Of a DNA stretch of 64,000 nucleotides, positions 1 through 64,000 are shown in pieces. Position numbers and translations under genes: made by a program. Below the pieces are notes generated by a model that saw only the letters and a list, made by a program, of their open reading frames with translations, had not been told where the DNA came from and did no database searches. Position 1 is the first letter of the stretch. Each line of letters begins with the position of its first letter. The DNA comes from Ulva prolifera (Eukaryota > Chlorophyta > Ulvophyceae > Ulvales > Ulvaceae). The DNA is taken from positions 248,001 through 312,000 of the forward strand of contig CM041197.1 in the NCBI GenBank assembly GCA_023078555.1. Direction: 5' to 3'.

Positions 1-1553
1 CCACGGTGTCCGCATGCAGGCGCAACCAGTGGTGGTCGTCCGCCACACCAGGAAGCCGTCCGCCCCTTGCGGCCTATGCCGGCTGTGCAGGGGAGCTGCC
101 GGCAGGTGCAGGGGACCCGCCTGCGGCGCCGAGACAGCCGCTGCCAGGTGCTCCACAGTGAGCAAGGCGCCCTGCACATAAGGTACCACGTGCATTGCTC
201 TGCTCCGATCATGCAAGGTGAGGTGTGTGTACCATATTGTCAGGGAACCTCGAGCCGATGCCATGGCCAGCGGATCAGCACGCTGTAGCAGGCGGGAAGC
301 AGAACCAATTCGTCAATGTCTTTGTAATTGAGGCCAGTTCTCAGCGGTAAGTGTGCCATGGGAGCACAGCCTGCCAGCCTGCGATCGGGCGGCATGTGCC
401 GCAGAGGTGGTTGCAAGCATTTGCCATCGCAGTCACCGGAAATCAAGTTTTGCATACAAGCTGGCTTGCAATGGAAGCACATAGGAAGTTTCTTGAAGAC
501 CTGGCCAGGTACCATGATGCCTACCGCAACTGCCTTTCGTGCTTGCACCTGATTTTTGTAAGATCCATGGGAGACGCCACAGGACAACATCAACAAGCAC
601 ATCAACAACAGTGCATCGGTGCAGTTGATTCTAAATGATATAACATAAGTTTGAAAAGGATCTGACATAGAGGCCTGAGTGATCCCAGCCACATGTCTGA
701 CGGTGGACGTGGCTGATCATGGAGGGATTGTGTAGCAGCACCGCCACCAGGCTGGCCATACAGCTTCGCGAAGCAGGCGATCTTAGACGAGGCTCACGGT
801 GACCTGCGGGCGCTGTTAATACGACAGATGTCGTTTATGTTCAGAGCTGTGGTCTGCTTGACGGCAGCGCCAGCCGGTCATGTGGCATGCTAGTGCTCTT
901 GCTGTCGAAGCCTCCCGCAGCTGGGTGCTCGCGTGTCGAGGGCACCGCCAGCTCCGGTCGTCTAGAATCATATCAGTCTCTGTGTGGTGACGACTGCGAT
1001 GATTCCATATGGTATGACTGCTCTTTCCGGTATTCCGGACCACTGGCGCCAGATATCGTTGGCAGCTTCTCACACTGTCCCAGATAGCTCCACCGATACT
1101 GGCCTAGATCGTGTCAGCTAGGTCGACAGAGCTTATGCAGGTACTGCTTAAAACTGATATTCGCTGTGCAAATGCAGCGTGCGCTCGGTGAAGCAGTCGG
1201 TCCGAAGCAATCTGCGTTCTAAGTCAGCGTGTTTGGGTCTTTCGAGCAAAGCTGGTGGCCGCTTGATCCAGAATGAAGTTAATATTGCTGGATGAGACGC
1301 AACGGCGCACCGGTTCCGTCGGCTTCAGAGGTCTAACTTTCGTGCGGGTACACCATTCCCATGTCAACGTTGCTGAGCTGCACGGCACCAAGTCGCGGCT
1401 TGCGGAAGCCCGAAGGAACGGTACAATGTCTCCACACGTTTCACGCTCCTCTTGCTGGACGAATGGAGGAGCAAGCTCGACACGGTGGCCACAGGACTGG
1501 CGCCTGCAGGGCACAGCTGTTCCTGGCAGCGAAGCCCACCACTCAGTGGCCAT
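1..1553 (-). pseudogene. ZBH1: zinc-ribbon/beta-helix gene, 5' part only, probably decayed
   Basis: Only the first two exons lie in the window; the beta-helix exon would continue past the left edge. Exon 1 is 1311-1553 (81 codons, ATG at 1553, starts MATEWWAS) and ends at a GTGCGC donor. Exon 2 starts at 171 after a TGTGCAG acceptor and reads GALLTVEHLAAAVSAPQ, closely matching ZBH2. Two signs of decay are visible. In exon 1 the zinc motif keeps C-x4-C-G-H, but the third of the four cysteines is replaced by Arg (ERETCG instead of CxxCG). In exon 2, near positions 25-30, one base is missing relative to the siblings just after VWRTTTTGC, so the frame leaves the conserved HAGTVELPERG segment. 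A sequencing error could explain the second change but not the first. With ZBH2 it forms a subgroup sharing CRRQSCGH in exon 1. Confidence 0.6.
240..668 (-). CDS. Unassigned 142-residue open frame inside ZBH1 intron 1
   Basis: An ATG at 668 opens a frame of 142 codons that ends at 240, on the same strand as ZBH1 and wholly within its first intron. Near the start it has a hydrophobic stretch (ALLLMCLLMLSCGVSHG) that could be a signal peptide or membrane segment. A cysteine-rich part follows (CFHCKPAC, GDCDGKC, AGCAPM). No family is recognised and no matching frame was found in the intron of ZBH2. It could be a small nested secreted-protein gene, an extra ZBH1 exon or a chance frame. The hydrophobic-then-cysteine-rich order is the only argument for it. 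Confidence 0.25.
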   Translation of the reverse strand: MSDPFQTYVISFRINCTDALLLMCLLMLSCGVSHGSYKNQVQARKAVAVGIMVPGQVFKKLPMCFHCKPACMQNLISGDCDGKCLQPPLRHMPPDRRLAGCAPMAHLPLRTGLNYKDIDELVLLPACYSVLIRWPWHRLEVP

Positions 1554-2222: not shown

Positions 2223-5200
2223 CTACGGCATGACGATAGCCACCTCCGGGAGCGGCCGGACTAAGTCAAAGTCAAGCTCGCCCCACGTGAGCATCGTGTC
2301 CACAGACTCTACAGGGACCTCTGCAGCCTGGCCCGCACACCCGATCACAGTGCACCCGGAAAACACGCTGCGCTCGGATACATGCCTCACGAAAACACCC
2401 AGGTGGCACGCGACTGCGGTCACGTTGCTCGCCTCCACGTGGCCGGGTTCGCTTACCAGCACCGCATACTTGTCGCAATCCACCACCTCACAGTCGGCGA
2501 GGCGCAGCCGCGCAACGGCGCCCTCATGCGCGCAGCGCGCCGTGCCCGCCGCGCTGCCTCCCCCCCGCAGTTTCTCAAACGCCTGCCGCACCGCGGCCTC
2601 GCCCGAGCGGCCGCACACACGGCACGGCATGGCTAGCTCGCGCGGGAGCTCTCCGACCAGCATGCCGGCCATGCATTGCGATACCCGCGTGCTTGTCAGC
2701 CGCACCGCAGCTGGCCCGCACACCCACACGCCGGCGACGCGGCAGCCGGAGACGCTGCAGCGCAGCATGGTCACGGTGGTGGCGTGGGCGGCATCCCTCT
2801 TAGACCGCCGCTGACAGGGCATCGAGTTGCCATCCACTGTGGGCGGTTCGGGCATGACACGAAGCCCTTGCTCCGCGCCTGAAAGCTCCGAGTCGACTAG
2901 CTTCACGAGCGTGGGCACACCGGCAGCGCAGCGTACAGAGACACAGTCACTGGCCGCCTGAATTGACATCCGCTTCGCAGTGAACGAGGCGCCCCCGGCC
3001 GCGATGGCGACGCCCACATCTCCCCCTGTCACCTTGCAGTCCTGCGCGGAAAGGTCGGCACCGCTGCTCAGGGCCACCCCTGTCCCGCAGCCGTGGACGG
3101 TGGTGTGCAGGAGCTTCACCCCTGCTCCCTGGGCCGCCATGACTGCACGGCCAGACAGGGCGTTCATGCGGCAGCCGCGAATGGTGCATACGCCACCGTG
3201 GCCCGCATACACAGCGGCGACTCCCGCAGCGGCGGAACCCGCAAAGGAGCAGTTCTCGACGACCACTGGGCCGAGAGCGGCGACGTAGACGCCATCAGCG
3301 AGAGCCCCCTGGAACGTGCAGTCACGGACGGTCACGGCGTCAGGGGTGCAGGCGGAGACGGCGTCCTGGAACCCTGAAAAGCCGCAGTGTGCCACACAGC
3401 CACCGCCGGCGTCGGCAAACACGATCGCAGATTTGCTTGTGCCCTCCTCCACCACTCCCATCTTACCAGCCACCTGCTCGTTGCCCAGCCCGCGGAAGAT
3501 ACAGTGCCGCACGTCCGCCTCAGCCCCCGGCTGTGTAAGCTTGACACCCGACACACAGCCACTGAACGTGACCCCACAGAGCCTCACCGATGCAGGAACC
3601 CCCGGCGGCAGATCTCCGCCCGAAACCAGCCCAAGCAAGCACTTCTCCACCGTGCCACCCTTGATGGTCACACCCCCCCCCTGCACGAGGTAGCCAGCCC
3701 CACCACAATTATGGGACTCTGTCTCCTTGCGGACCGGCTGAATATCGCTGACGGTCGTGTCAGTTGCAAACACCGTCCCCGCCGTGCATGACACCCCCGC
3801 ACGGCCGTTGCTGACGTGGCACCTGAGAAGCCGAACGGTCGCAGCGCGCAGCACGGACACCACCTCCCATTCACCCGCACCGCGGCAAGTCCGCAGCACG
3901 CAGTCGGCCGCCGCGACCCGCGCGTCAGCCTCCGCCTCACACGCCATCTCGCCTTCGTAGCAGCCCCCCTGCAGCCGCAGCGCGCTGCCGGGATCGTGCA
4001 CGCTCAGGCACTCTGCCAGGGTGGCGGCCTTGCAGTGGGCAAGCGCGGCTCGCCCCCCCTTGCGCACATACGCAGCGGCGTGCGAGCAGCGCGTGCGGCA
4101 CAGCACAGCGCTGGCGTGGCTGCCCCACGTCACAGCCAGGCCGCCTCCACCCGTGGGTGTGTCGTGCATGTCGCACCGCTCCATCTGCATGCATGACGCG
4201 CTCCGTTTGTGCGGGAGCCGCGTCTGGCCGAGGGACACAGCCATCGAGCACGATTTAACCGATGGTCTCGCAGAGACGCTGATGTGGCACTCCCGCAGCG
4301 TCAGCCTTGCGGAGCTCTCCGTCAGGGCACCATACATGACTCCGGCAACATGCAGCCGCTGCGCCTGTACGGTGCTGCGCTGCGTCCCCCTAGCCACACG
4401 CACTGCCTCAATGAAATCCGAGACCCGGCAGTCATAGAGCCGCACAGCAGCGCTGCTCATGGTGATGCCGTGCAGCCCCAGAATGCATGACAGTCCGCCG
4501 CCGACCAGCACGCTGCGCGTCAGCGCAGCGGTGCTGCAGGCATCATTGACCGCAATGCCGGTCAAAGTTTTGGAAATGGTGCACGAGTCCGCGGCGAGGG
4601 TGGCCCCACGCTCGACGACGACGCTGGTGCTGCAGCGAGAGATGCGGCAGTCGGAGATGGTGACTACGGTGGCGTCACCGCTGGCGACGAGGCCGGGGTA
4701 AGCGCCGGCGACGCGGCAGGTGAGCAGCGTGACCGCCGCGCCGTGCACAGCATACACCGTGGTGGACTGGAAGTTACAGTTGTGGAAGGTCCCGGAGAAG
4801 TGCGCCCCGGCACACATGACAATTCCTCCTGCGGCATGCATGCATGTTTGATAATGCGCAAAGCTCGTCATATGTTGCACCCCCGGACAGGCCTGGAACT
4901 TCATGCGCGTGGCGGCATCACAGAGAAAATGCATGACTCTTGAACAGCACAGCTTTGCTGCGCTGTACACGTCACATGGAATGCAATCTGTTGTGCAGCA
5001 GCGCGGACCTTTGAAGGTGGTGCCGTGGAAGTGTGCGCCGGCGCCGGCCAGCAGCAGCACCCCCCGCTCCGGCAGCTCCACAGTGCCCGCGTGGGCGGTG
5101 CAGCCCGCAGTGGCCGCCCGCCACACCAGGAAGCCCTCCGCCCCCTGCGGCCAGTGTGGGGTGCATAGGGGAGTCACCGGGAGGTGGAGGCTGTGAGTCT

Positions 5201-6658
5201 GCGGCGCCGAGATCGCCGCTGCCAGGTGCTCCACGGTGCTCAAGGCGCCCTGCACATGAGGTCTACTGTGTCACCTTGACTGCGCCATTTGAGCATTGGA
5301 TACTGGCGATCGCAAGTCCCGCAAACATGGGTGGCCAAAAAGGTGATCGCGAACGCCATATGATCGGACCAGCTGGCTGCAGCATGACTTGGTGACGGGC
5401 TATCAAAGGTTGGATGATTGAAAGTCAGTGCTTCGGCAGCACATGTGTCTTCGCAGAGGACTGTGCACCTGCCAAGCTGGTGGCACATGCGTGCTGAGTT
5501 CAGCCTGAGCAGCAGAGGGATTTCATGCCGTGGCCGTTTTCCTGAGCAACCACCAGTATTTATATAATATATATAAATACTGGTGGTTGTATATATTTCT
5601 TGTGTGTAACTGCATTGGTATTCTCCCGACGATCTGGAGCCAGTCAGATATCAGTGCGCGTGATCTGGCAGCTTCTGTGCTTGAAATGGATCCATGCGTG
5701 GCTCAAGTGACAGCACAGAACTGGAAAGGCATGCACGCCAAGTTGACATCCATGCATTCGGTTTGCATGTTCAAAGTGGTCCGAGCGGCTTCATAGACGG
5801 TGGGAGCTGCGATTTATCTGAAGGCAGTCTAGATCTGCTGCAGCACGTTGTGTCCGGCCAAGCAAGTCCACAGTCGATTGTGATGCATGAACGAGACGCA
5901 GATAAGCCCAGAGCAGGCATCGACAACGTGGTGAAAGATTGGGTGTACTTGACGAACAGCGCGGTCTGATCGTACCATATGCTGGAGCGAAATCTTCAGT
6001 ATTATAGTGTGGCAGTGTAATGCTCACAGTGTAATGGAACCATCCGGCACACCGCTGATCCCGGTCATCCACATCTGAGTTCTAGTGTGGATGTAGAGTG
6101 ACTGCGGACGGTAGCTACCAACTACGCGGACAGGTGCTGCGATATTTCTTGCGTTTATTTCGAACCGTTGTTCAGGAACTTTTATACTCATGGCACCAAC
6201 TGTCCCGTCCATCGCGCGATTGTACAATGCGTCTTGGTGAATTTGTAGCGTCGTAGTAAAATTTGACATCGTCTGGGCACACAGACACCGCGATCTGCGA
6301 ACCTGTTGGTCCTAAGCAATTTGCGAACAACACGGCTGTGTGGGGCTGTTGACCCGTCCTCGCCACCGCTACATCAGACCAATATAAGTCAGAAATAAAG
6401 ACTGATATCGCGGCGCACCCAATCTTTCTGACTTGGACGTCGAACGTTTGTGCGGGTGGCCCAGTCCCATGTCAAACCTGTCCAGGTCGAGGGGACGAGG
6501 TCGCGGCTTGCGGAAACACTAGAAGCTAACCCTGGGTCTCCACATTGATCACAGCGCTGCTCGTGGTCGGATTGAGCGAGATCTACACGGTGGCCACAGG
6601 ACTGGCGCCTGCAGGGCACATCCGCATCTGGCAGCGAAGCCCACCACTCTGTAGACAT
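2223..6658 (-). CDS. ZBH2: zinc-ribbon plus parallel beta-helix protein
   Basis: Three-exon model: exon 1 6419-6658, exon 2 5009-5249, exon 3 2223-4828, giving about 1028 residues with all phases consistent. Residues 1-80 hold the zinc-ribbon-like domain (C16, C21, H23, C36, C39), followed by a conserved RDLVP...LTW segment. Exon 2 carries the family signature VWRAATAGC...VELPERGVLLLAGAGAHFHGT. Exon 3 opens GGIVMCAG and runs as beta-helix coils of about 22-24 residues with regularly spaced Cys. Near the end, CRVCG and RCAHEG form the second metal-type cluster. Start choice: the ATG at 6658 matches the start of its siblings. Intron 1 is long (1169 nt) and holds a palindrome. Intron 2 is 180 nt, a multiple of three with no in-frame stop. 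No signal peptide is visible. Function unknown; a binding scaffold is inferred. Confidence 0.72.
5547..5589. repeat. 43-bp hairpin with 20-bp perfect arms
   Basis: The left arm 5547-5566 and right arm 5570-5589 are exact reverse complements around a 3-nt loop (ATA). The inner half is AT only and the outer half reads CAACCACCAGT. It lies inside ZBH2 intron 1. Perfect arms suggest a recent origin or ongoing maintenance. It could be a minimal foldback element. Confidence 0.85.
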
Positions 6659-7543: not shown

Positions 7544-10500
7544 CTACTCGACCAGAGACCAGGAGACTCCCGACAGCACCTCCGGTAACACCATCGACTC
7601 ATCATTGGCACTGACATGCCGTCGGCCGTTCACGGGATACATACACCCAATCGCTCTGCACTCTTCAAACGTGCTGCTCTTGCCGGCGACCCGAACAAAG
7701 AACCCTATCCCACACGCCCGAGCGGTCACGTTTTGCGCCGCAGCGCAGCCATGCGGGAGAACAGCCACACCCCACTTTGAGCAAGCCTCAACATCGACAC
7801 GCACGAGCGTTACTCGCGCAACGCAGCCGTCATGTGCGCAACGGCCCGACGCCGCCGCAGTCCCCAGAAGTGCGCGGTACGCCCTCACCAGCGCCGCCTT
7901 GCCACTCACGCCACAAACCTCACACACCTGTTCCACGTCTTCGTCTGTTTCCCCGACAACGACGCCAATCGCGCATCGCGTGATCACGCTCTCGAGCACC
8001 CGCCCCCTGACCGCACCGCCTAAGTATATCCCGGTGTGGCCGCCTGACACTCTGCAGCGGACGACGGCGACAGAGCCGCCGGTGTCCGCCACGTGCACCC
8101 CAGCTTGGACTCCAGAAAGCTCGGAGTCGATGAGCTTCACGTCCACAGGCGTGCCGGTACGGCTGTGGGCACAGACACCAATCACGCTTGCCGAGACAGT
8201 CACGCGCTCCGCAGTCAAGACGCAGCCGCCAGCAAACGAGAGAATTCCCATCAGAACGCCCGTGATGTGGCAGTCCAGCACCTCGAGCTTTGAGTTTTGG
8301 CGGGCGACGAGGCCGTCGGCGGTGCCGTTGACGGTGGTATCGCCCAGCACCTTCACGCTGGAGCCCTCATTCGCTGTGATGCAATCGCCCGTCATGCCAA
8401 CGAGGCGGCAACGGCGGATTGTGCACGTGGCCCCGCGCTGTGCCCGCACCCCCTCCGCCCCCGTCATCGAGCAGCCCTCCACCAGCACTACACCCTCAGC
8501 CTCGACGCAGACACCCTTCGTATCGCCGCCCGTAAACTGACAGTCCTGAATCACGATGCCGTGGGGTGAACTGGCGGCAATATCGCAGTGGTGTCCTTCA
8601 AACACACACCGCCGCACTGAACTGCTCCCACACCCAGCAAGCACAAGCCCCGTCATGAAATCGGACAGTCGGTCGGTGCAACGTAGATCCTGCAGCACCC
8701 CGCGCTTGCACTCCCGCTTCAGGCCACGGAACTCACACTCCACCACGTCAGCCCTCACCCCGGACGTGATCTCCATGCCACGGACACAGTCCCTGAACAT
8801 GACGCCCTCCAGCGTCAGCGATGCTGTCCCCCCCTTTGCCGAAAGCCCAATACTGCAGTGCTCCACAGAGCCACCTTTGACGACGGTGCTACCCCCGCTG
8901 ATATGGTATGCTACTGCATCTGGAGCTTGGCCACGCCGCGGCCCCTCGTGCCCGGGCGAAACAATCGGGCGGATCTGAATGTCGCACACCGACGCTTCAG
9001 TCGCATGGACGGTGCTGTCGGTCGCCTGCACGCCCGCACACCCGTTGTGGATGTGGCACCAGGACAACCGCGCGCACGCCTTCTCACGCACGATCACCAC
9101 CCCCCCGTCCCCCCGGACGCCGCGGCTGGACAGCTTGCACCCAGCCGCCGACAGCCGCGCGCCCCTCTCCGCAAGGCACGCGACGGTGCTGCCCTCATAG
9201 CTGCCGCCGTCCAGGCGCAGCAGCCCGGCGGGAGACTCGATGCGCACGCACACCCGCGTGCCGGTGCTTACGCCGGTGCAGTGCGCGAGCGCCGCGTGGC
9301 CGCCGTGCCGACCGCTCGCAAGCACCTCCTCCGTGCAATCGAATCGGCACAGCCGCGCAGCGACGGCGCCGTCGTCCTGCAGGCTGATGCCGCGCACGGT
9401 GCCGGGCTTTATGCGGCAGCGCTCGAGCTGCGCCCGGCCGCCGCCGTTCACGCCGTCCCTGGTCCCGAGGAACACAGCCATCGGGATCTGCACTTTGGGG
9501 CCGCTGCGGTCGCACAGGAATGTGCATCGCCGGAAAGCAGCACGGGAGTACGTGGAGAGCATGGCTCCCTGGGGGCTGTCGGTGAATGTGACGGTGTCGG
9601 CCTCGACCGAGGTCGTGCGGCCGATGGCAGTGAGAGCTATCGTGAAACCCTGCAGCCTGCAGGAGCGTAGCAGGAGCGTGCCGCCGCGTGCGGTGGCCGC
9701 GGTGTCGACCCGCGCGCCCGCAAGGTCGTTGGCGATCACGCAGTGCTGGAGCGTCACACGCGTCCCCCGGCCGTTGGAGACCACCGCTGCAGATGTGCGA
9801 GTGAGGCGGCAGCCGTGCGCGATGACAGACGCGCCGCACTCGGCGACGATGCCGGTGGGGCAGCCGTCGAAGGTGCAGCTGGCGAGGGTGGCTGCAGTGG
9901 CGCCGCCGCTGGCGGTGAGGCCCGGCTGGCAGGCGAGGAAGCGGCAGTGGTGCAGCCTGGCGGCGGCGCCATGCACTACGTACAACGCGGTGTCGTCGAA
10001 CTTGCAGTTCTGGAATGTTCCGGAGTGCTGCGGCCCCGCACACATGACGACGCCCCCTACACAACGCAAAGAAGTCTCAGCACAGCTGAGAGACAGGAGT
10101 ACACTGCTTGCCCTGGCTGATTGAGAATCACCGACGGTGACATGTGCTGGCTCACAAATCCTTGCGCGGGTTCGAGGCAGACACGATTTCGGGAGATGAA
10201 TGGCACAGTGCCTCCCAAGTGACAGACAAGCTGATACCTCACCTTTGAACGTGACGTCATGAAAATGCACGCCGTGTCCTGCCAGTAAAAGCACGCTTCC
10301 CTCTGGCAGCTCCAGCTGGCTCGAGTGGATACTGCAGCCGGTGGTGACTGCCCGCCACACCAGGAAGCACCCAGCAGGCGCCTGGTGTCTACTGCGGACG
10401 AAGCTCAAGTGGCCGCTGAGGTCCAGCTTGCGAACATTCAGCGACGACATGGCCGCCACAACAGCGTCGATGCTTCCGATCTCGCCATCCCACTGCACTT

Positions 10501-11428
10501 GCAGCTCTCGGTGGACACGAGCAAGAAGGGCACTGGTACCGTAGCATGCGAGGGCTCCAGAATGTAACAGTGGAGACACTCCGTGATCGACCGCTGAACT
10601 CCTGGCTTCAGCACATACTGAGAGTGACTACAAGTCATTAGTGTGCACAGCAATCCGACGGCATCAAACATGCAGCAGCGCTGCCGCTGCATTCGACGTT
10701 GCTGCGACTCAGCGTGCGAGAGTAACGCGGGACTGACTGCGTCCGCCAAAATTTATCAAGAAAGGAGTCAAGAGCGCATCCTACGTTGTCACAACTGGAT
10801 ACGCGTGTACGCAACACACTGTCTCTCAATGATGGACCGTCAACTGCACAGCGCAATCCAGGTAAGGTAGCGCGATGAGGACATGCCAACAACATGTCAC
10901 GCAATCTCACACTCCTCAGATATGTGATAGATTATGTACATTCGTTTCCAGCAACTACATTGATGCTGGCCGCGTGTTGAGCCGATGGAACACGGACCGA
11001 GCATGCACTTGCTTGTCAGGGAGAAGACGCGAATGCTCACAGAAATACTTCGTAGGTTATGTAATCCTTGATTGATCAGTAATTGCGGACTGCCAGTTGC
11101 AACAGGATGGCCACACAGATACAAAGTCAGAAGGCGTTTGGTCAAGTAGGTTACGCGCGAACGGGCTGGCACTCGCACTGCGGGGACGTCGCACCACACA
11201 ATGTTCTGAAGTCATCAAATTACGCGATGTCTTGAGAGATGCCCAGTCCCAGGTCAAGTCCGCTGACGGCACATAGTCTTGATACCCACGACTGAACTGC
11301 AGGAGGCTGCTCTCGCCACATACAGTGCAACGAACTGATTGAACTTGTGAAGGTATTGACTTTACATGGCCGCATTGCGGAAGCCGGGTCTTGGCTCGTC
11401 CTTGCGAAGCCCAATTTTCCAGACATAA
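7544..11428 (-). CDS. ZBH3: beta-helix family member with damaged first exon
   Basis: Exon 2 (10243-10492) and exon 3 (7544-10056) are intact, with good splice sites and matching phases. Together they encode about 920 residues of lead-in and beta-helix, including the C-terminal CEVCG...RCAHDG cluster. Exon 3 is the shortest complete one of the family (837 codons). Exon 1 (11195-11428) is recognisable by LENWAS, RLPQCGH, CTVCGESS and QDYVPSADLTWDW. However, the position of the family start codon reads TTA, the nearest ATG (11426) is out of frame, and the first zinc cysteine is Thr. The gene may start elsewhere, make a protein without the zinc domain, or be decaying. Intron 2 starts GTGAGG and ends TGTAG, unlike its siblings. 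It is 186 nt long, a multiple of three, and stop-free. Confidence 0.6.
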
Positions 11429-12284: not shown

Positions 12285-12348
12285 CTGCTGTTGAGCAAGG
12301 CCAATGAGCCTGTGTATACACAGGCTCATTGGCCTTGCTCAACAGCAG
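12285..12348. repeat. 64-bp perfect palindrome without loop
   Basis: Thirty-two bases on each side of the 12316/12317 junction are exact reverse complements, centred on GTGTATACAC. No mismatch occurs until the bases just outside. It is the longest uninterrupted palindrome in the window and lies in the gene-poor gap between ZBH3 and ZBH4. Confidence 0.9.
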
Positions 12349-14388: not shown

Positions 14389-14457
14389 ACTGGAGATGTG
14401 GCTAGCCACATCTCCAGTTCGGAGCGCTCCAAACGCGTTCGGAGCGCTCCGAACTGG
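14389..14457. repeat. Two overlapping palindromes back to back
   Basis: 14389-14418 is a 30-bp perfect palindrome (ACTGGAGATGTGGCT and its complement). The 17-bp arm 14414-14430 is exactly complementary to 14441-14457, with a 10-nt loop, and each arm contains the self-complementary GGAGCGCTCC. The two structures share 14414-14418, so they could form alternative cruciforms. Confidence 0.85.
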
Positions 14458-27738: not shown

Positions 27739-27741
<3 letters not shown>

Positions 27742-46941: not shown

Positions 46942-49900
46942 TCATATCGGCAACAACTCCACGCCCGGGATGGACACTGCAGTGAACACTTTTTCAGGCA
47001 AGGTGCCTGGCATAGACGTTGGATTAAAGGCCGCACAGGTTTCGTCACGCCAGTCTTGCACACCCGCCTGGCACCCGATCGCTCTGCAGCTCTCAAAGCT
47101 GCCGAGATCATCATGGACATCCATCACGAAGCCATGACCGCATTCGCGCGCAGTCACCCGGGACGCCTCGAGGCGGCCGAGGGTGCTCACATGCACGCCG
47201 GCGAACGCGCACCGCGCCACCTCGCAGTCGGCCATGGCCAACTGCGCCAATGCGCCCTCATGCGTGCAGCGCGCCGCCACCGTGGGACCACTGCCACTGC
47301 CTTGCGCATGACCGCGCGCCGCCGCGGATGCAGTTGCAGCCTGCCGGGCTTGCTGCATGCTCAACCCGCAGACGATGCAGGGGTCTTCATCAAGACGGAG
47401 CAACGTGCCCAGCATCACGCCGGTCTGACAGCCCGAGATGCTGCCGCCGTTGATCTCGGCCGTCACCGGGCCCGTCAGAATCACCCCGGCCTCGGCCGCG
47501 GCGACACTGCAGCGCAGAAGAGTGATGTCCGCCGCGGCGTCCATGACCTGCACGCCTGTCTTGGCGCCGCTGAGAACCGAGTCGATGAGGGTCACGACCC
47601 TGCGGAGGCTACTGTGCGGTGCAGTTGGTAGGCGCACGTTGATGCGGCCCGCGTGCAATGTGACGCGATTCGCATCCAACACCGCCCCGCTCCCGGCCAC
47701 GAGCACGGCGATGTCCGCATTGATGATGCAGCAGTCGCTCGCCGAGAGCCGCGCCTGGTCACGGAGCACTACGCCTCGGCGACATGGCCCGGCCGTGGAG
47801 TCCAGGACTGAGACACACGCGTCGTCCTGCGCATCTATAGCGGCAAGGGCAGCACCCTGGAAGCGGCAGCGGCGGACGTCGCACTTGGCCGCATCAACCG
47901 CGACAATGCCGCTTTGATGCTTGTCGCCCGTGCTGTGAACCTTGGAGTCCTCGATTGCCACCTTCCCCGCCACAAGCACGCCCATGCCCCCAGCGTTCAG
48001 AACTGCTACGTTGCAGTGTTGAATGCTGACGGCTGTGACGTCCTCCGCAACGCTCACGCCATCGGAGAATCCTGAGACAGAGCAGCGCTGCACTGATGCA
48101 TGCCGGCAGCGCAGAGAGACACCACAGCACTGATTCGTGTTGTTGCGAACCTGCGCTGTCCTCAGAAGTGCCACAAGCCCCGGATCCCCCTGCCGACCTT
48201 CCTGAAGCCCCTGGAACACGCAGCCCACGAGGTCAGCCCGACCTGGGTGTGAAAAGTCGGCACCAAACACACAGTCAGTGACGTGCACGCCATCCAGCGT
48301 CACATAATCGGCCTCGACTCCAGCAGTACCCGACTCGACCCCGATGACGCAGCGGCGCACGCTGCCGCCCCGCACAGTCAGCCGGCTGCTCACGCACAAG
48401 TACCCCGCGCCACCGCTGCTGACCCCGATCTGGGAGCGCTGCTCAGAGCGGCAGAACGCTGGTGGGAACCGCGACTGCGCGCCGTTTACGCATACATTCA
48501 CGGCAGAAACCGTGGCTTCACACATCAGCACGCCGATGATGCCTCCATGGACGCTGCAGCCGCTGAGCCGCCCCTGTGCGTCCACAAGCGTCACCACCCC
48601 AAACTCAGCAAAACTGTGCCCGCCGTGTTCTCTCGGACCGTCCTGACTGCGAAATTCGCAGCCAGTGGCTGTGAGCTGCGACCCGAGCTGCATGATGCAC
48701 GCTGTCGTTGCACCCTTGTAGACACCACCCTGTACCCGCAGCCGACCGTCCGGCGAGGCCACTACCAAGCATGGCTCCTGGCTCTCACAAGTGCAGTGGG
48801 CAAGTGTAGCATGGCTTCCACTGACGATCTCGATTGCAGCGAGATTACTGGAGGCGGAGAAGCGGCACAACGTCGCAGCTGCTGTGCTGCTGCGGGTCAA
48901 AGCAACAGCCGAGGCGGCAGCCCCACACTCGCGCACGGTGCAGCGCTCGAGCTGTAGGAACACGCGGCCCCCGCTGCCAGCGCCGCCACAGGCGGCAATG
49001 GCAACGGGGCGTCTCGGACTGGGTATGCTCATCTCGACGCTACTTTCACGCATCACCGCATGGGTGTGTCGCCGCATGCACACCCCGCCAACGCTGTCCG
49101 CGATCTGCACCCCCTGCAGCTCCACCCTGCTGTGGGTGGCATGGAATCCGTTGTAGAAGCTCGTCAGCTGGCAATTCCGCAGAGTGGCGACGCCGTGGCG
49201 GACAGTCACCCCAGCCTCGCCCAAGGGATCATGAGCATCGAAGCCGCCTCGGACGTCACAGCGCTCCAATGCCGCATGGCACCCGGCTTCATTGAGAGTG
49301 ATTGCGAATTCTGTCCTCAAGAGGTCACATCCGCTCATTGCCAGCTCCGCGCCGGCCTCGGCGACGATGCCGGCGCGGCAGCGGCGGAATGTGCAGTCGG
49401 TGAGAGTGGCCGAGGTGGCGCCGCCGCTGAGCGTCAGCCCGATGTGAGCGTGACGAAAGACGCTCCGGCGGATGACGGCGGCCGCGCCATGCACGAGGTA
49501 AACACTGGTGGCATGGAACGTGCAGTCCTCGAACGTTCCGGAATACTGCGGACCGGCGCACATGATGTTGCCCCCTGCAGCACTCACGGACTGTGTTACA
49601 TGGACCACGTCGGGGAGGCAGGCAGCACCGCCAAGACAATGAGCATGTGGACACCAACACCACCGTTCGCCATCAGCTTGTGCCGGCACAGCAGGATGAC
49701 GAAGCCCATGGCTGTCACAGCGGCATGGCCGTGGTGTGCCGGACGACCGCTGCAGTGTGTCTCCGGCGTCACCGCGGCACATAGCAAGGGCTACAGGGCT
49801 CAAGGTAGTGCACAGTAACGTGTGTGTATAGCCATTGCAAGGAGGCAGATGTGGGCCCGGACCTGTGAAGGTGGTGCCGTGGAAGTGTGCGCCGGCACCG

Positions 49901-50750
49901 GCCAGCAGCAGCAGCCCCCGCTCCGGCAGCTCGACAACACCAGCGTTGACAGAGCAGCCGACAGTGACCGCCCGCCACACCGCGAAGGAGTTTCCACGCG
50001 GAGCCAGAAATGGGGACTTGGGCGGCAGGGACGCCGTGCGGAGGCGCAGGCGGTGCACCTTTGGGGAGGAGAGGGCCGCCACGAGGTCCTCGATGGCTGC
50101 GATTCCTGCGCCGTCCTGCAAACAGTGCTCCGCTCTGACACCATCGACGAAGCACTGGTAAGAATGGCAGTAGAAGGCAAGCAGACATCACGATTGTGGA
50201 GGCAAGCACACGATCTGGGAATATGTGTGCATTTTGCACGTGTGCGCAGCCTATGTCAGCCCTTGAATGAATTCAGCGTTTCGCAAAACATGTATGTACG
50301 TTGCGAGGACTGCATATGTTCGGCATATGTGGTCCCGTTAATTCGGAGTTGTCAATGTGCAATAGGATACGGCTCAGTAACTTCAGATTTACTTTTACTT
50401 TTACTGCTGAAAGTCAGCATGGCCCCGGCAAATGCTACAGCTCGCCAAGCTTGATATCACTTGTGCTGACTGGTACCAGAGAGCGCATCAGACACGCCGT
50501 AGCGCACCACGTTCAGCGGTTTGAGCTGTGGCCTAGTTAACTTTCTGCAGGTTGCGCCTTGCCACGTCAAATCAGCTGTGGGGACGTAATCCCGGGTGGC
50601 CAGGCCGCTCTGCTCAGGCCGCTCGTCGCCGCAGGTGGGGCATTCGAAGGTCGAGTCGACTGGAGCAGAAAGTTTGATTGTATGGCCGCATGTTGGCAGA
50701 CGGCATTGCACCGGCGCCTCAGCGCTGCCAGCCCACGACTCGAACGACAT
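46942..50750 (-). CDS. ZBH8: zinc-ribbon plus parallel beta-helix protein
   Basis: Exons 50508-50750, 49863-50115 and 46942-49574 encode about 1042 residues. Exon 1 starts MSFESWAGSAEAPVQC (C16, C21, H23, C37, C40) and ends ...PLNV at GTGCGC. Exon 2 has IEDLVAALSSPKVHRLRLR and VVELPERGLLLLAGAGAHF. Exon 3 begins GGNIMCAGPQYSGTFEDC and near the end carries CIVCGLSMQQ, a longer spacer than its siblings, then RCTHEGALAQL. Intron 1 is 392 nt. Intron 2 is the longest second intron (288 nt), yet is a multiple of three with no in-frame stop, so exons 2 and 3 form one open frame of 1059 codons if it is kept. If retained, the insert would add 96 residues with several Cys. Probably intact. Confidence 0.75.
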
Positions 50751-52998: not shown

Positions 52999-54132
52999 TA
53001 CTCGCCTGGAGTGCGACGGCGTGCGAAATCGAATGGCATGTTGTATCTCTGAGGTATGTCCTTTCAAAGAATAGAGCGGCTTTCACAGCTCTACATGTAT
53101 CCCTCAAGTATCAGCAAGAGGGCATCAACAGCGTCCCGGAAGCTGCTGTCGGTCAGAATGCGCTGGCATCAGCATCGCTGTTATTTTTTGTGGTATGCCA
53201 GAAACTCATCAATGGTATGTACATCCCATTCACCACTGCAGGAGCAGTCACTGCACATTGTCGAATACTTTGTGCCATTACAACCAGAGCAATACAGATA
53301 CAAATCCTTCTACATGACTCCCTCTCTCGTCCACGTCCTCAAGACGAGTGTGCGTTCCTGCGGAATCCTGCGAACTGCTTGCGTTGCTCCAGCATGGTCC
53401 TTGTCTGGCTCGTATGGCTTTGCTGCGCTGCTCATGGTCCAGATCTGGCTCGAGCCACGACCAGTGCATGCCAGAGTGTTCTGCGGACTGCTGCACTGCC
53501 AGCGGCAGCGCTGTGCATAAAGACCATGATCATGATGGCCATGTGATGCTTTGCACGGACGGTATCAGTCCGCCGCATCCACAGGCACACCTTGTGCCAT
53601 GTGATGCTTCCACGAAGCAGGTGCATCGCGCCACTCAAGCAAGGTCTCTCTGCCGTGATTGTGAAGGTGCTGCTCTACATGCATGTAGACATCATGCTCT
53701 CATCTACAGAGCAGATGCCAGAGGGATATAAATGAGCTGAGGTGCGGCAGCTGACCTTTACAGATGAGGACGGCATCCACGGCTGCACAGACTCGAGAGG
53801 TGTGTTAGGCAGGGGAGAAAACAAAGCCCTTGGTACCATCCTGCACTCCTCTCCAGGACGAAGGTAAGAGCTGTCTGATGATGACCTACCGCCATCGCTA
53901 CGTATACTCGAAGCAGCAAGCATTGCCTATTTTAATATTCTTGGAAACCCCCAGGCATTGGTGACTTTGGAATACGTTCCATTTTCTGGACAATTAGCAC
54001 ATTATTCAATAACATGGAATAGATAGAGATTGCCCGTGTCGCGCAGCTAGGGTGGCACAACTCAAGCTGACACAACACAGGCGCACACAGCGGATGCTCA
54101 GAGCATGCAGAATGGTGCCTGATTACATCATA

Positions 54133-54740
54133 TTACTCCTGGTAGGTCTCATGCACGCCGTCCTGGCACCCGACCGCTCTGCAGCCCTGGAAGCTGCAGC
54201 GACCACTCATGAAGTCCACACAGAATCCACAACGGCAGGCGTGTGCAGGCGTGTGCGGTCACTTTGGAGGCCTCCAGGCGGCCATGCACGTTCACATGCA
54301 CCCCCTCCTTTGCGCACCGCGCCACCTCGCAGTCTGCCATCTCCACCTCCGCAAACGCGCCCTCATGCACGCACCGCGGCGGGGCAGACGTGCTGCCGCC
54401 GCTGCCCCCCCGGTAAACCTCCGCAGCTGCATGCATCGCCATACTCATTGCTCGCGGGCCGCTCACTCCGCAGACGGCACACGCTTTACGCTCACAGTCC
54501 AGCACACCACCAACAGCCACACCGGTCTGGCAGTCAGAGATTGTGCCGCCCCAGATGCGGGCCTTCACGCCGCCGGCCACAAACATGTTGACCAGCGAAT
54601 ACGCTATAGCGTCACACGGTATCATGCGCATGACCTGATGTGCCACAGCGTGCAGGCACCGCCCCCAGCACATCCACGTCGGCACTGGCTCCATCACGAT
54701 CGCACAGTGGCCCAATCAAGGGAGCATCTGCCTCCCCCCG
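54133..54740 (-). pseudogene. C-terminal fragment of a ZBH gene
   Basis: About 600 bp correspond to the last fifth of the beta-helix exon. The best part reads VKARIWGGTISDCQTGVAVG, CAVCGVSGPRAM, RCVHEG and MADCEVARC. Near 54240-54250 a duplicated CAGGCGTGTG shifts the frame, after which the end CGFCVDFM...GCRAVGC continues in another frame to a stop at 54133. The part upstream of VKARI is also out of frame (a DVDVLGAV piece resembling the VADVDVVRC segment of ZBH9). No zinc exon or lead-in exon is near. It lies between ZBH8 and ZBH9 and is probably the remnant of an eleventh copy. Confidence 0.75.
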
Positions 54741-55868: not shown

Positions 55869-58800
55869 TCACTCTGACACCACCTCCAGGCCTGGGATGG
55901 GCGTTGCACTGTTGACACCGTCATGCATGTGATCTACACCGGCAGACACAAGACCGGGCCGTTCTCGAGCGCCCACCTCGCACCCGACAGCTCGGCAGCC
56001 CTCAAATCTACAATGTTCCAGATCAACATGCATGTTGAAACCGTGGCAACAGTCTTGCACCGTCACCCCGGACGCGTCGAGGCGCCCAAGCTCATTCACT
56101 CGCACCCCCGCGACAGAGCACCGCGCGACCTCGCAGTCGGCCATCGCCAGCCTCGCGACCGCGCCGTCATGCGTGCAGCGCGCACCCGCCGCAGCGACGC
56201 CGCTGCCCCCTGCAAACGCATCCGCAGCCGCAATTGCTGCCTGCGTCGCCTGCTCCCCGCCTCGCCCACACACCACGCATGTGTCATCGTGCGAGTATCC
56301 AGTTATAGCTCCTACGGCCACGCCGGTCTGGCAGCCATGCACACTCCCGCCCTCAATGCGCGCATTGACGGGGCCCGCCACACGCACCCCGGCCGTTGCC
56401 GCAGCAACGTCGCATCGTACAACATCGACGTCCGCCACCGCGTCCTCGACCAACACGCCGTACGCGGCACCGGAGAGAACTGATTCTACAAGCTTCACCA
56501 ATGTGCGGCCGCTGCTGTGGGGCGGCACCGGCGGCAGATGCACATTGACGTCCCTCGCGTGCATCGTGACGCGCGTCGCAGTGAACGATCCGCCACTTGC
56601 ACAAAGAAGCATACCAACCTTTGCATCGGTAATGCTGCAGTCCTGCGCCGTCAGCTTTGCCTGACCATGCAACACAAAGGCACGGTCACAGGGGCCGGCC
56701 ACGGTCGAGTGCGCAACCGCGGCAGTCGCGTCCCCTTGCACCTCGATCGCAGCGAGCGTCAGGCGTTTGAAGCTGCAGCGGTCGATGGTGCACGTAGCTG
56801 CAGCACCGACGGAGATGCCACATGTTTGCGCGCCGGCGGCGCAGTGAAACACGCAGTCCTCGACGGCCGTGACGCCCTTTGTCGCCACCACGCCCAGGCC
56901 TGGGCTGCTGGTTCCCGGGCTCATGACCGACAGGTCACAATTGCCAATGCTCACCTCCGCGCCATCCCGCGCAATCTCCACGCCGTGGGCAAATCCCGAG
57001 ATACAGCATTTCTGAACCGACACGTATGGGCAGCGCAGCAAGAGGCCGGTTGCCCCCCTCGCCCGCAACCTGCCCGCCGCCGCCTTCTGCAACGCTGCCG
57101 ATTCTGGTGCCGCTTGTCGCTCCCCCAGCAGCCCCCGGAACACACAGCGCTCCACGGCAATACGACCGGAGTGAGCAAAGTCAGCACCACAATGACAGTC
57201 AGTGACCTCGACACCGTCGAACGTGACCGCGTTCGGGTTGCCTTCGACGACATCCGACTGAACCCCGACAATGCAGCGGCGCACGCTGCCGCCCCGCACA
57301 GTCAGCTGGCCGCTCACGCAGACAAACCCTGCCCCGCCCAGGTCCTCACGCGGGCCGCGGCCAGCCCCGGAACGAGATGCCACCGGTGGCGCTTGAACAT
57401 CACATACGCTTGTGTCCACAGCAGACATCACGCCCTGGCAGGCCAAGACGCCGATGATGCCGCCGCGAACGCTGCACCCGCTGAGGCGCGCATGGGCCGC
57501 GCTCACGGCCGCGACCACCCCCTCGAGCACACGAGGGTCGCCTCCGGTATGGCCTCGGCGGCCGCGAAACTCGCAGCCAGCGGCAGTGAGCTTCGCCCCA
57601 TCCCGGGCCCCGCACACTTTCTCGCCACCCCTGTAGACGCCACCCTGCACCCGCATCCGCCCCGCCGGAGAGGAGACGAGCAGGCACACCTGCTCGCTCT
57701 CGCAGGTGCAATGTGCCAGCATGATACGACCGCCACGGAATGCCCTTACCGCCGCGGCGTCGTTTGAGCAGGAAAAGTGGCACAGGGTCGCAGCCGCTGC
57801 GCTGGCATCCTCAAAGTCAATCGCCCGCGCCTCAGCCACGCAGTCGCGCACGGCGCAGCGCTCCAGCTGCAGGCGCACGCGGCCCTCGCAGCCCGCGACG
57901 CTGCATGCCGCAACCGCTGTGGGGAGCACCGCACTGGGCGTAGTCATCCGGAAATCAACTTCGCGCGCGAGCGCATGAGTGCGGCAAGTCATGAACACCC
58001 CCTGAGCGTTCCGATCGATCTGCACCCCTTGCAGCTCCACCCTGCTGCGGTCGGCGCTGACCGCAGTGTGGAAGGACGTCAGCTGGCAGGCCCGCAGAGC
58101 GACCGCGCCGCGGCGCACGGTCACCCCGGCCTTGCCAAGGGGATTAGCATCCCCGCTGCCGCCACTTACATCACAGTCCTCCAGCGCAGCACGGCTGCCG
58201 ACTTCATTGACGACGACTGCAAACTGGGTCCCGAGGAGGAGACACCCGGTCATGCTGACAGCCGCGCCTGCCTCGAGGACGATGCTGGTGCGGCAGGCGA
58301 GGAATTTGCAGTTGTCAAGAGTGGCTGAGGTGGCCTTGCCGCTGAGGGTCAGCCCGAGAAGTGTCAGACGAAAGCTGCTGCTGCGGAGGGTGACGGCTGC
58401 GCCATGCACGGCATAGACGGTGGTGGACTGAAAGGTGCAGTTCTGGAAGGTTCCGGAATACTGCGGCCCGGCGCACATGACGACACCCCCTGCAGCATGC
58501 ATGAACTAATCGGCGCGCACATGGCAGCATGAATTCGGCGCGCACAACAAGGGCAAATTCCAGAAACAAGGCGATGGGGTCGATGAAGTGTGAGGTCGGA
58601 CCTGTGAAGGTGGTGCCGTGGAAGTGTGCGCCGGCGCCGGCCAGCAGCAGCACCCCCCGCTCCGGCAGCTCCACAGTGCCCGCGTGGACAGAGCAGCCCA
58701 CAGTGGCCGCGCGCCACACCACAAACGAGTTGTCACGCCGAGCCGGTAGTGGTGACTGAGGCCGCAGGGGCGTGGCGTGGAGGCGCAGGCGGTGCAGCTT

Positions 58801-59784
58801 TGGGGCGCATAGGGCCGCCACGAGACTCTCCACAGCCGTGACTCTGACACCGCTCTGCAGCCAGTTCCGTGCTCAACTACAGAATAGATCAGTCCTGTGC
58901 GGGCAAAGCGCTGGGCGTGTGCTGCTGGCCATGACGGCATGCATGCACGCTGTGCGGAGGAGCTGTCAACAATGTGCAAACATCGGGCGGGATGTCGTTC
59001 GTTTGGAGGCGGTGTTGGCTGTGGTACCTGATTGATTTTGCGGATGCAAGTAGGACTCCAGATCCAGCGAGCGGCACAAGAACAGGAACGATTATCGCAA
59101 AGGCCGCGGTCACGTTGGCAGCAAGGCATCGGCCGTGGCGGTTTTAGATTGTGTTGCCTTGGGTGGCAGGTGGCGAGATGCCGCCAAAGTGGTGAGATGT
59201 GAGCTAGCTGTGTGTCAAGGCTGTGCGTGCGGGGACACCCGCGTCTGCGCCTTTTCTTCAATTGAGAGACAGTGCGGAGCTGCAGTGGCGTGGTGCACAC
59301 AGCCCGCCACCTCAGCCGCATCTTCCTGCGTCCTGCGCTCTAATCGCGTCGATCATGATCATCACACGTCCGCACATGGATCCTTCGTCCGAATACACAG
59401 CAAAGAGAAGCAGGTACTGGAGGTGTGCCTACATCAAGATGCGGCCGCGAGTGCTCTACTGCTAGCCATGGCTTTCGTGAAATCACTGAGATGTGTGGTC
59501 GCTCTGGTGCAAAAGAAAACGCAAACAGCGTCGTAGCACACCGGACCCGGGTTCTCATGATGTAGCTGACTGATGTTTGAGCAGGCTGCCCCTTCCCAGG
59601 TGAGATCGGGCGTCGGCACGTAGTCCCGGATGGCCCGGCCGCTCTGTCGAGGTAGCGCGTCTCCACAGGTGGGACACCCGAATCTCGAGACCTTCGAAGC
59701 AGGAAGGCAAATTATATGGCCACATGCTGGCAGACGACACCGCACAGGCGCCTCAGCGTTGCCAGCCCACGACTCGAATGACAT
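55869..59784 (-). CDS. ZBH9: zinc-ribbon plus parallel beta-helix protein
   Basis: Exons 59542-59784, 58602-58854 and 55869-58489 encode about 1038 residues. Exon 1 starts MSFESWAGNAEAPVRC (C16, C21, H23, C37, C40), followed by RDYVPTPDLTWEGAAC. Its donor is GTGTGC where most siblings have GTGCGC. Exon 2 carries VESLVAALCAPKLHRLRLHA and VELPERGVLLLAGAGAHFHG. Exon 3 opens GGVVMCAGPQYSGTFQNC and near the end carries CVVCGRGGEQ and RCTHDGAVARL. Intron 1 is 687 nt; intron 2 is 112 nt and ends GCATGCTGCAG. The protein has no signal peptide or membrane helix, which with the two Cys/His clusters suggests an intracellular location. It appears intact; the substrate or partner is unknown. Confidence 0.75.
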
Positions 59785-61963: not shown

Positions 61964-64000
61964 TCACATCGGCACCACCTCCACCCCTGCGATCGGCAGG
62001 GCTTTTGCAGCAGCCTCGACCATGAGGTCTGCAGAGACAGGCGCCACGCCGCCGCACTCCCGAGCGCCGATCTGGCACCCGACCGCTGCGCAGCCCTCAA
62101 AGCTGCTGTCACCGGCTTCCAAGTCCACCCAGAACCCACAGCCACATTCACGCGCGGTTACTCCACATGCATTGAGGCGTGCGAGCACATTCACATGCAC
62201 CCCCATCAACACACACCGCGCCACCTCGCAGTCGGCCATGGCCAGCTGCGCAACCGCTCCGTCATGCGTGCATCTGGCGATTGCCGTGCCACCGCCCCTG
62301 CTGCCCCCTGCCACAGCTGCCTGAACTGCGGACAGCATCGCCGTTTGGCCACTCGCGCCGCAGACGACACAGGGGACATTCTGGACGTTTATCACGGCGC
62401 CAACAACTACGCCCGTGTGGCAGTCAGAGATGCTGCCGCCCTTGATGCGGGCCTTGACCGGGCCCGCCACAAACACCCCGGTGTCCTTGGCGGCAACAGT
62501 ACATCGCACGATCGAAACGTCCGCCGCAGCGTCCCCGGCCCACACGGCCGTAACAGCTTTGGCAAGCACACAATCGACAAGCTTCACGATCCGGCGGCCC
62601 GCCTGCCCCGGCGTAGCAGGCAGAGCCACGTTGGTGTGGTTCGCATGCAGCGCGGTGCGCTTCGCGGTGAACACACCCCCGCTTCCCACAACGCTCACGG
62701 CGATCTCCGCGTCGTCGATGCTGCAATCCTGTGTCGCAACCCGCCCCTGATTATTCACCACGATGCCGTAACGACACGGGCCTGCTACGGCCGACTCCAA
62801 AACTGAGGCAGATGCATTACCCCGCACCTCTATTGCGGCATGCGCCAGGTTGCGAAAGCGGCAGCGGCGGACGGCACACCGCGCGGTCGCCTCCATGGCA
62901 ATCCCAAACTCTTTCGTCAACCCCGCGCTGTGAAATTCGCAGTCCTCGACTGCGACGTTCCCCCTCACCAGCATGCCCAGCCCTTGGTCACTGGAGACGG
63001 TCACGGCACAGTTCCGCACGCTCACCTCCGCTCCGGGGAGGGGGATCTCGATGGCCCCTGGGAATCCCGCGATAGAGCAGCGCTGCACCTCCGCATGCAT
63101 GCAGTGCAGCCCGAGGCTGGCAGACCCCTGCCCGCAGTGGCGGACCTCGCCCGCCCTCCGCAGCGCCTCCAGGCCCGGCGCCCCCTGCCGCTCGCCCTCA
63201 AGCCCCCGGAACACGCAGCGCGCCAGGTCGACACGGCTTGGGTGCCCGAAGAAGGCCCCAGACACACAGTCAACGAGCTCGACGCCGTCAAGGGCAACGG
63301 TGTTGGACTCATCGTCCACCGTGTCCGCCTCGATGCCGGCAACGCAGCGGCGCACGCTGCCTCCGCGCACGGTCAGCCGGCTGCTCGTGCACAAGTACGC
63401 TGTGCCACCGCTGCCTTCAAGGAGCAGATTGCCAGCCCGCATGTGGGTCGGCCCCGGCAGAAAGAGCGTCTGCACGTCATGTATGTTTGTGTTCACAGCG
63501 GCCACCGTGGCCTGGCTGACAAGCACACCAATGACACCGCCGTGGACACGGCAGCGCAAGAGCCATGCGCGAGCGGCCGCCGCAACTGCAACCACGCCAA
63601 CTGACTTGCGAGAACCCCCTGTGGTCTGCCATTCCTGGCCATCCTGGGCACGGAACTCACAATCCGTGGCTGTGAGCTTCGCCCCATCCTCGGCCGCGCA
63701 CGCCGTCAAGGCCCCCTCATAGCGGCCGCCCTTGAGCCGCAGCCGCGTGCTCGGCGAGGCGATCAGCATGCACACGGCCTGGCTCTCGGCGGTGCAGTGC
63801 TCCAGCGTTGCGCGGCCGCCGACGCCTTCAACATTGAATCCGACAGACACGGCTTCGCTCACGCAGGCGAAGTGGCACAGCGTCGCTGCCGCTGCGCTGC
63901 CATCGTCAACGGCCAGAGCTCTCGCCGCGGCGACGCGGCCGCGCACGGTGCAGCGCTCCAGCTGCAGAGACACGCAGCCGATGCCTCCCGCGTTGCCGGA
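61964..64000 (-). CDS. ZBH10: beta-helix exon, 5' part beyond the window
   Basis: The frame is open from the right edge to a stop at 61964 (678 codons), which corresponds to the last three quarters of exon 3. It contains LQLERCTVRGRVAAARALAV, coils such as TATDCEF and RRCRFRNL, the C-terminal cluster CVVCGASGQT and RCTHDGAVAQL, MADCEVARC, and the family end GVEVVPM. It is clearly in the ZBH5-9 subgroup. The zinc exon, the lead-in exon and both introns should lie within about 1.7 kb to the right. No damage is visible in the part present. Confidence 0.7.
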   Translation of the reverse strand, partial: SGNAGGIGCVSLQLERCTVRGRVAAARALAVDDGSAAAATLCHFACVSEAVSVGFNVEGVGGRATLEHCTAESQAVCMLIASPSTRLRLKGGRYEGALTACAAEDGAKLTATDCEFRAQDGQEWQTTGGSRKSVGVVAVAAAARAWLLRCRVHGGVIGVLVSQATVAAVNTNIHDVQTLFLPGPTHMRAGNLLLEGSGGTAYLCTSSRLTVRGGSVRRCVAGIEADTVDDESNTVALDGVELVDCVSGAFFGHPSRVDLARCVFRGLEGERQGAPGLEALRRAGEVRHCGQGSASLGLHCMHAEVQRCSIAGFPGAIEIPLPGAEVSVRNCAVTVSSDQGLGMLVRGNVAVEDCEFHSAGLTKEFGIAMEATARCAVRRCRFRNLAHAAIEVRGNASASVLESAVAGPCRYGIVVNNQGRVATQDCSIDDAEIAVSVVGSGGVFTAKRTALHANHTNVALPATPGQAGRRIVKLVDCVLAKAVTAVWAGDAAADVSIVRCTVAAKDTGVFVAGPVKARIKGGSISDCHTGVVVGAVINVQNVPCVVCGASGQTAMLSAVQAAVAGGSRGGGTAIARCTHDGAVAQLAMADCEVARCVLMGVHVNVLARLNACGVTARECGCGFWVDLEAGDSSFEGCAAVGCQIGARECGGVAPVSADLMVEAAAKALPIAGVEVVPM

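Follow-up and report, generated by a model that had tools for sequence, protein, structure and literature searches.

What kind of protein does an alga encode in a row of similar genes that all point the same way, and what might such a protein do? The question is raised by a 64,000-nucleotide stretch of the Ulva prolifera genome (hereafter the window; C2:248001-312000 in a genome of 88,887,114 bases in 44 contigs), in which we find eight three-exon genes, one gene cut at each end and an isolated fragment of exon 3, every one on the minus strand. A preliminary description of this sequence had announced ten full or partial copies plus one fragment in a single orientation, and both the count and the orientation are correct. 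The window holds nine exon-3 frames (677-878 codons counted from the intron boundary, the one of 677 being truncated by the window end), nine exon-1 homologues and nine exon-2 homologues. The left-end gene has only exons 1 and 2 inside the window; its exon-3 match, at C2:246844-247749, spans query residues 1-294 only. The array is real and not a product of chance, since 41 of 55 genome matches to exon 3 are near full-length and without a stop, the ratios of nonsynonymous to synonymous substitution rates (dN/dS) lie between 0.39 and 0.55 in the 22 closest pairs listed, and, when the window is aligned with itself, matches beyond exon 3 (expectation value, E, of 1e-10 or lower) occur nowhere but in the fragment, in palindromes and in exons 1 and 2, the sequence directly flanking these two exons included.

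The three-exon plan with fixed intron phases could be read directly from the sequence. Intron 1 is in phase 0, with an in-frame GTNNG donor 42-54 nt past a conserved Trp in 26 of the 28 exon-1 copies examined (a set that leaves aside the frameshifted exon 1 of locus L019 and, in L029, an additional exon-1-like stretch). The acceptor of exon 2 is a CAG in phase 0 and its donor is in phase 1; of the eight copies displayed, copy B has TAG ahead of exon 3 and the others have CAG. Do exons 1 and 3 belong together? Their pairwise distances are strongly correlated over 25 genes (Mantel r 0.84, reached in 0 of 2000 permutations, the highest of which gave 0.26); exon 3 was aligned for 29 genes, of which copies B and I, L019 and L032 were left out for want of a clean exon 1 in the alignment. 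Because the two exons co-diverge, the comparison of sequences indicates that they are parts of one gene, and the concern that they might come from different genes was not borne out. The predicted protein has about 1,050 residues and probably resides in the cytosol or the nucleus. Judged by eye, no hydrophobic signal peptide was seen at the N-termini, which usually read M[SA]xExW.

The bulk of this protein comes from exon 3, which is predicted with confidence to form a right-handed parallel beta-helix, the start of which is encoded by exon 2. An AlphaFold2 model built on 29 aligned proteins has a mean predicted local distance difference test score (pLDDT) of 86.4 and a predicted template modelling score of 0.78, and shows 88 strands, mostly in threes, making about 29 turns. 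The Pfam profile Beta_helix (PF13229) matches all three window proteins scanned, above its cut-off (E 2e-28 to 2e-32). The model and the profile together uphold the parallel beta-helix of about 880 residues proposed at the outset. Inside exon 3 there is also a second zinc-type site, absent from the preliminary description: C734-x2-C737, a helix at 741-758 and C771-x-H773 are inserted near the C-terminal end, with the four ligands invariant in 29 of 29 proteins, and the strands resume after the insertion to about residue 840. The solenoid itself carries a cysteine ladder. Where strand b passes into strand c, 62-66% of the residues at the stacked position are Cys (residues 3-592, strands assigned in threes), and Cys makes up 5.3-6.5% of the whole of exon 3 in nine window copies. 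Within strands, variability peaks at two positions of strand c, with entropies of 2.69 and 2.74 bits, and at a strand-a position with 2.68 bits, all three taken to face outward; the outward positions of strand b range over 1.93-2.33 bits, the outward-facing side being deduced from the residue pattern. The invariant residues of exon 3 are Cys, Gly, Ala, the zinc set, D615 and R638.

The N-terminal module, encoded by exon 1, had been described as a zinc ribbon with the pattern C-x4-C-G-H/C-x2-C. Its zinc-type character stands, but conservation does not extend to the first Cys of C-x4-C: only 12 of the 26 exon-1 proteins have an additional Cys among the six residues ahead of CG[HQ], while C21 (26/26) and H23, C37 and C40 (25/26 each) are near-invariant, so that the conserved core is C-G-H...C-x2-C, that is C-x-H plus C-x2-C. 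The other 14 copies lack a Cys in that neighbourhood, which makes the His of C-G-H the likely fourth ligand. The name did not hold as a settled identity. A zinc ribbon is made of two C-x2-C knuckles; here the test for a second knuckle failed, only one C-x2-C being conserved, and the exon-1 model is poor (pLDDT 59). Profile searches gave scattered results. Against the PDB, the exon-1 profile finds matches from E 0.02 that mix C2H2 fingers, RING-type ligases and zinc-ribbon proteins. In Pfam, the 26 members match an FmdE treble clef (E 0.00017, one member), rubredoxin-like entries (best E 0.0014, three members), Prok-RING_4 (E 0.003, one member) and Zn_ribbon_8, which matches the most members (four of 26, best E 0.027); cut-offs were given for the first member only, and none was reached there. 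Given the conserved C-x-H plus C-x2-C and these scattered matches to zinc proteins, the N-terminal module likely binds zinc. We infer that both zinc-type sites do so, and that the second would clamp the end of the solenoid.

The family extends far beyond the window. When exon 3 of copy H was searched against the genome, it matched 55 places, 42 of which span at least residues 3-834 of 874. The family therefore counts at least 42 full-length copies, of which 31 lie at C2:133-978 kb (22 on the minus and nine on the plus strand), seven on C1, two on C8 and one each on C4 and C35. Exon 3 is open in 41 of these 42, at identities down to 28%, in agreement with the repeated duplication with retention first suggested for the window. 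Upstream of each of 20 further copies, a hidden Markov model (HMM) search detected an exon-1 homologue (E 1.2e-4 or better; the model was made from ten copies, three of them among the 20), and exon 2 was read in ten of ten loci examined (L015-L024). Some copies look damaged: L032 has a stop in exon 1, L019 a frameshifted exon 1, and copy B is without the usual ATG. In the exon-3 tree, six window copies (D to I) cluster with L015 of C1, a grouping which suggests movement of copies between chromosomes.

Three members of the family call for separate mention. A full-length copy at C35:15344-17836 carries seven in-frame TGA codons and no stop of another type. Two copies, at C1:9427990-9430524 and C1:9471539-9474073, have equal match scores at a distance of about 43.5 kb, which suggests that a segment was recently duplicated. 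A relative, L041 (C2:723300-727300), has an exon-1-like start, MSLELW...ELTW, which keeps MSxExW and LTW but, by eye, has lost the Cys/His set of the zinc site, and this start escapes the exon-1 HMM.

The host genome contains chlorophyll a/b-binding protein genes (38 exon-wise matches). After the entry 9vfj, the next PDB matches of the light-harvesting proteins are chlorophyll a-b binding proteins of organisms that we take, for most of the chains, to be green algae and plants. The entry 9vfj itself, a Euglena photosystem I chain (PMC12577709), is the best match of two of these proteins, with a score that, for the one protein shown, sums repeated domains. Judging by these genes and their matches, the host is an organism with green plastids, most simply a green alga.

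How do the copies evolve? In 25-codon sliding windows along two clades (35 and 34 windows), the proportion of nonsynonymous differences (pN) never rises above that of synonymous differences (pS). As no window departs from this, the sequences are under constraint, with no sign of diversifying selection at 25-codon resolution. The copies also seem to exchange sequence. Between the neighbours L025 and L028 (C2:234 kb and 228 kb), 13 consecutive 30-codon bins hold four nucleotide differences in total and the other 16 bins hold 207, and this near-identical tract of about 390 codons likely reflects gene conversion. The rows of L025, L028 and L030 start some residues before the exon boundary, the boundary motif not having been found there, so that a small stretch of intron falls into their first bins.

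Some beta-helix genes elsewhere in the genome are associated with another type of domain. In five loci read, on C7, C8 and C9, a protein kinase lies upstream of a beta-helix gene on the same strand, a segment resembling exon 2 precedes the beta-helix, and a C...CG[CF]...CxxC module stands ahead of the kinase in all five (alignment A6). Three of these five modules match the RTF2 RING profile, with E-values (0.0099 at best) that do not reach the Pfam cut-off; in a PDB search with alignment A6 the top match, at E 0.067, is a sugar transporter, and TRIM32 reaches E 0.64. The kinase of L038 looks like a pseudokinase, since HCG and GFG replace HRD and DFG and the Asp residues are lost (by eye). At least 32 matches to the L040 kinase were found genome-wide (query included), many of them at C1:12.26-12.45 Mb and on C9. 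In five of the 32 (query counted) a Beta_helix match follows downstream on the same strand at a distance of up to 6 kb; none has one upstream, and one has it on the opposite strand, both match lists being lower bounds. Scanning the upstream frames of two other beta-helix genes, L035/L001 and L037/L002, matched no Pfam family, and no upstream domain was seen in L003 (L039), by eye only. The exon-1 HMM gave nothing better than E 0.024 in L001-L003, L005-L008 and L035-L041.

We tentatively favour, with a confidence somewhat short of even, the reading that these are nuclear genes of a green-plastid alga, amplified in tandem, whose products would be intracellular recognition or adaptor proteins. 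Recognition is suggested by a constrained solenoid with variable outward positions, by the two zinc-type modules, by the many retained copies, by conversion between neighbours and by cousins with signalling domains. The beta-helix would then be the recognition surface, or binding solenoid, and the N-terminal zinc module the effector or docking part, possibly a one-zinc RING-type docking site for a conjugating enzyme (E2), similar to SP-RING. Such a protein could tag or recruit whatever its solenoid binds. As the cousins carry this kind of beta-helix downstream of a RING-like module and a kinase, the solenoid may behave as an exchangeable sensor part. That the family has ubiquitin- or SUMO-ligase activity is on the unlikely side. 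Somewhat more doubtful still is the broader proposal that the beta-helix, and not leucine-rich repeats, serves as the recognition solenoid of a large intracellular receptor repertoire, with a one-zinc RING-like class (the window family) and a RING-plus-kinase class, whose copies would be shuffled by tandem duplication and gene conversion.

Several observations weigh against recognition proteins with a RING-like module. The exon-1 model is the poor one mentioned above, and its fold matches in a structural search are all at noise level (E 0.45 or worse), although a model of this quality is too poor to exclude a RING. The PDB profile search returned no convincing RING or SP-RING match: the best RING-type entry, 6f98, has E 0.039, and zinc-ribbon proteins are equally close. 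In Pfam too, ribbon and rubredoxin-like entries appear at levels similar to Prok-RING_4. When exon 1 is aligned with the kinase-linked RING-like modules, the expected cysteines do fall in register, but the hhalign probability is 1.5% (E 0.033), and homology between them is not claimed. The cousins L005 and L007 are, by eye, without the C-terminal zinc site, and that the kinase and beta-helix exons of the five loci are joined in one transcript is something we infer. Finally, pN stays at or below pS in every window of the two clades, which gives no evidence of diversifying selection.

Part of this evidence would suit a plainer account, in which exon 1 is an ordinary zinc ribbon docking to nucleic acid or protein and the beta-helix is a scaffold, with neither ligase activity nor recognition of foreign or variable ligands. 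Purifying selection throughout fits a scaffold; in the exon-1 profile search, RNA polymerase subunit P/Rpo12 (E 0.05), a lysine-biosynthesis zinc protein and eL40 (E 0.095) stand level with the RING matches, and Zn_ribbon_8 is the Pfam entry with the most members. However, the His that likely completes the first site is less typical of zinc ribbons, and it is difficult to see why a housekeeping scaffold would be retained in more than 40 divergent copies, so that we see in this account a minority possibility. The beta-helix could instead bind or modify algal polysaccharide, as in pectate lyases and C5-epimerases, which would make the family carbohydrate-active or cell-wall proteins. Indeed, the top PDB matches in Foldseek include PL6 alginate lyases and mannuronan epimerases (E from 2e-4), the exon-3 profile meets a fucoidan lyase over one stretch (E 0.0023), and Pfam adds NosD and a sub-threshold pectate-lyase-like entry. 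Yet these matches are generic for this fold, with a query template-modelling score of at most 0.25 in the 50 rows shown; the N-termini lack a visible signal peptide, and no lyase cluster could be recognised by eye among the invariant residues. We consider this role improbable.

About as improbable, or slightly more so, is drift in a readily duplicating tandem family under weak constraint that has no special recognition function. The relatively high dN/dS, about 0.45, and the damaged-looking copies (L032, L019, copy B and the C35 copy with its seven stops) are what speaks for it; against it are the 41 open exon-3 frames among 42 full-length matches, retained in spite of such divergence, and the complete invariance of the exon-3 zinc ligands. 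Delivery of the genes by a giant virus integrated in C2 seems very improbable indeed. The best structural matches do include beta-helix proteins of giant viruses, but the copies read are spliced, the family is spread over several contigs of 6-13 Mb, two pattern-seeded scans of viral contigs confirmed no relative, and no capsid-family match was found in the genome, in a search run without a positive control. A viral origin was rejected on these grounds, and a prokaryotic one as well, as none of 54 pattern matches in prokaryote contigs was confirmed. We keep intracellular recognition or adaptor proteins as the favoured, still tentative, reading.

Table 1. Exons of the gene array, in window coordinates, and kinase-linked beta-helix loci, in contig coordinates.
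Feature	Position	Strand	Remarks
Left-end gene, exon 2	22..192	-	
Left-end gene, exon 1	1311..1553	-	Arg in place of one zinc Cys
Copy A, exon 3	2223..4828	-	
Copy A, exon 2	5009..5249	-	
Copy A, exon 1	6419..6658	-	
Copy B, exon 3	7544..10056	-	TAG acceptor
Copy B, exon 2	10243..10492	-	5' end inferred
Copy B, exon-1 homologue	11195..11425	-	no ATG at usual start position
Copy C, exon 3	22461..25054	-	
Copy C, exon 2	25207..25453	-	
Copy C, exon 1	26147..26407	-	CGQ replaces CGH
Copy D, exon 3	27909..30541	-	
Copy D, exon 2	30668..30920	-	
Copy D, exon 1	31180..31422	-	
Copy E, exon 3	33502..36122	-	
Copy E, exon 2	36219..36471	-	
Copy E, exon 1	36895..37137	-	
Copy F, exon 3	38749..41378	-	
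Copy F, exon 2	41545..41797	-	
Copy F, exon 1	42243..42485	-	
Copy G, exon 3	46942..49574	-	beta-helix with C-terminal CxxC...CxH site; sequence used for folding
Copy G, exon 2	49863..50115	-	beta-helix start; acceptor CAG phase 0, donor phase 1, from sequence
Copy G, exon 1	50508..50750	-	zinc module CGH...CPTC; ATG to phase-0 donor GTGCGC
Isolated exon-3 fragment	54121..54697	-	
Copy H, exon 3	55869..58489	-	query of genome census
Copy H, exon 2	58602..58854	-	
Copy H, exon 1	59542..59784	-	
Copy I, exon 3	61964..64000	-	cut by right end
L036/L005	C8:5.573 Mb		kinase E 6e-17; beta-helix by Pfam
L038/L007	C8:5.595 Mb		kinase E 3e-10; beta-helix by Pfam
L040	C9:242 kb		kinase E 4e-13; beta-helix by Pfam
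L042	C7:6.09 Mb		kinase E 2e-31; beta-helix by Pfam
L043	C9:297 kb		kinase E 4e-14; beta-helix by eye

Between copies of the array, the window also contains nested mobile elements at 14450-17535. A sequence of about 1.15 kb (14450-15030 plus 16969-17535), the halves of which adjoin elsewhere in the genome at 92-99% identity, is split by an inserted element of 1.94 kb (about 15029-16971) that has other genome copies at about 79-92%. The palindromes of the window lie at 20297-20396 (100 bases, 98%), 12285-12348 (64 bases, 100%) and 14414-14457 (44 bases, 95%).

How does the family compare with known systems? The preliminary description could not name it, and our profile searches of Pfam, PDB sequences, PHROGs and NCBIfam likewise found no full-length match to a described family. 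In the literature searched, at the level of titles and abstract openings, neither a description of the family nor an Ulva genome reporting it surfaced. Relatives in other algae, possibly unnamed, are likely. The same fold is found in Pfam Beta_helix, in bacterial and viral beta-helix enzymes and in tailspikes, but sequence matches cover parts only; against the PDB, the best partial match of the exon-3 profile is a phage tail fibre (E 0.0014). Whatever its function, its order of domains and its cysteine-laddered beta-helix, into which a zinc-type site is inserted near the C-terminus, matched no full-length family in our Pfam and NCBIfam searches.

A first comparison, similar in its logic, is with FBXO11, which combines an F-box, a CASH beta-helix and a UBR zinc finger. 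According to PMC8825234, FBXO11 also pairs an intracellular beta-helix with a zinc module, and its CASH domains are important for substrate recognition. The zinc modules of the algal family differ in motif and place. No F-box appears among Pfam matches up to E 1 for three window exon-2/3 proteins and 26 exon-1 proteins, no UBR-type finger was matched in three window proteins, which have the C-terminal CxxC...CxH site instead, and FBXO11 is not among the PDB sequence matches of family proteins.

One-zinc RINGs, namely SP-RING (Siz/PIAS, NSE2) and the UBR4 hemiRING, offer a second comparison. The distal zinc site that SP-RING has kept consists of C-x-H plus C-x2-C, and the conserved exon-1 core, each ligand of which is present in 25 or 26 of 26 copies, resembles it. 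This retention of the distal RING site is stated in PMC10873205. The likeness has its limits, as the matches to NSE2 (E 0.13) and PIAS3 (E 0.72) are not significant, the gap from C-G-H to C-x2-C is often just 13 residues, and there is no confident model. Closer at hand, the kinase-linked genes of the same genome share with the family the exon-2-like segment and an upstream C...CG[CF]...CxxC module, but differ by the kinase lying between zinc module and beta-helix, and the C-terminal site was unseen in the two already named.

To our knowledge, intracellular recognition of pathogens or self in green algae is an open matter. The at least 42 beta-helix proteins with two zinc-type modules and their kinase-linked cousins are candidates with which it can be tested. 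Should they make up a receptor repertoire, it would be a functional parallel to the nucleotide-binding leucine-rich repeat receptors (NLRs), receptor kinases and expanded F-box families of plants.

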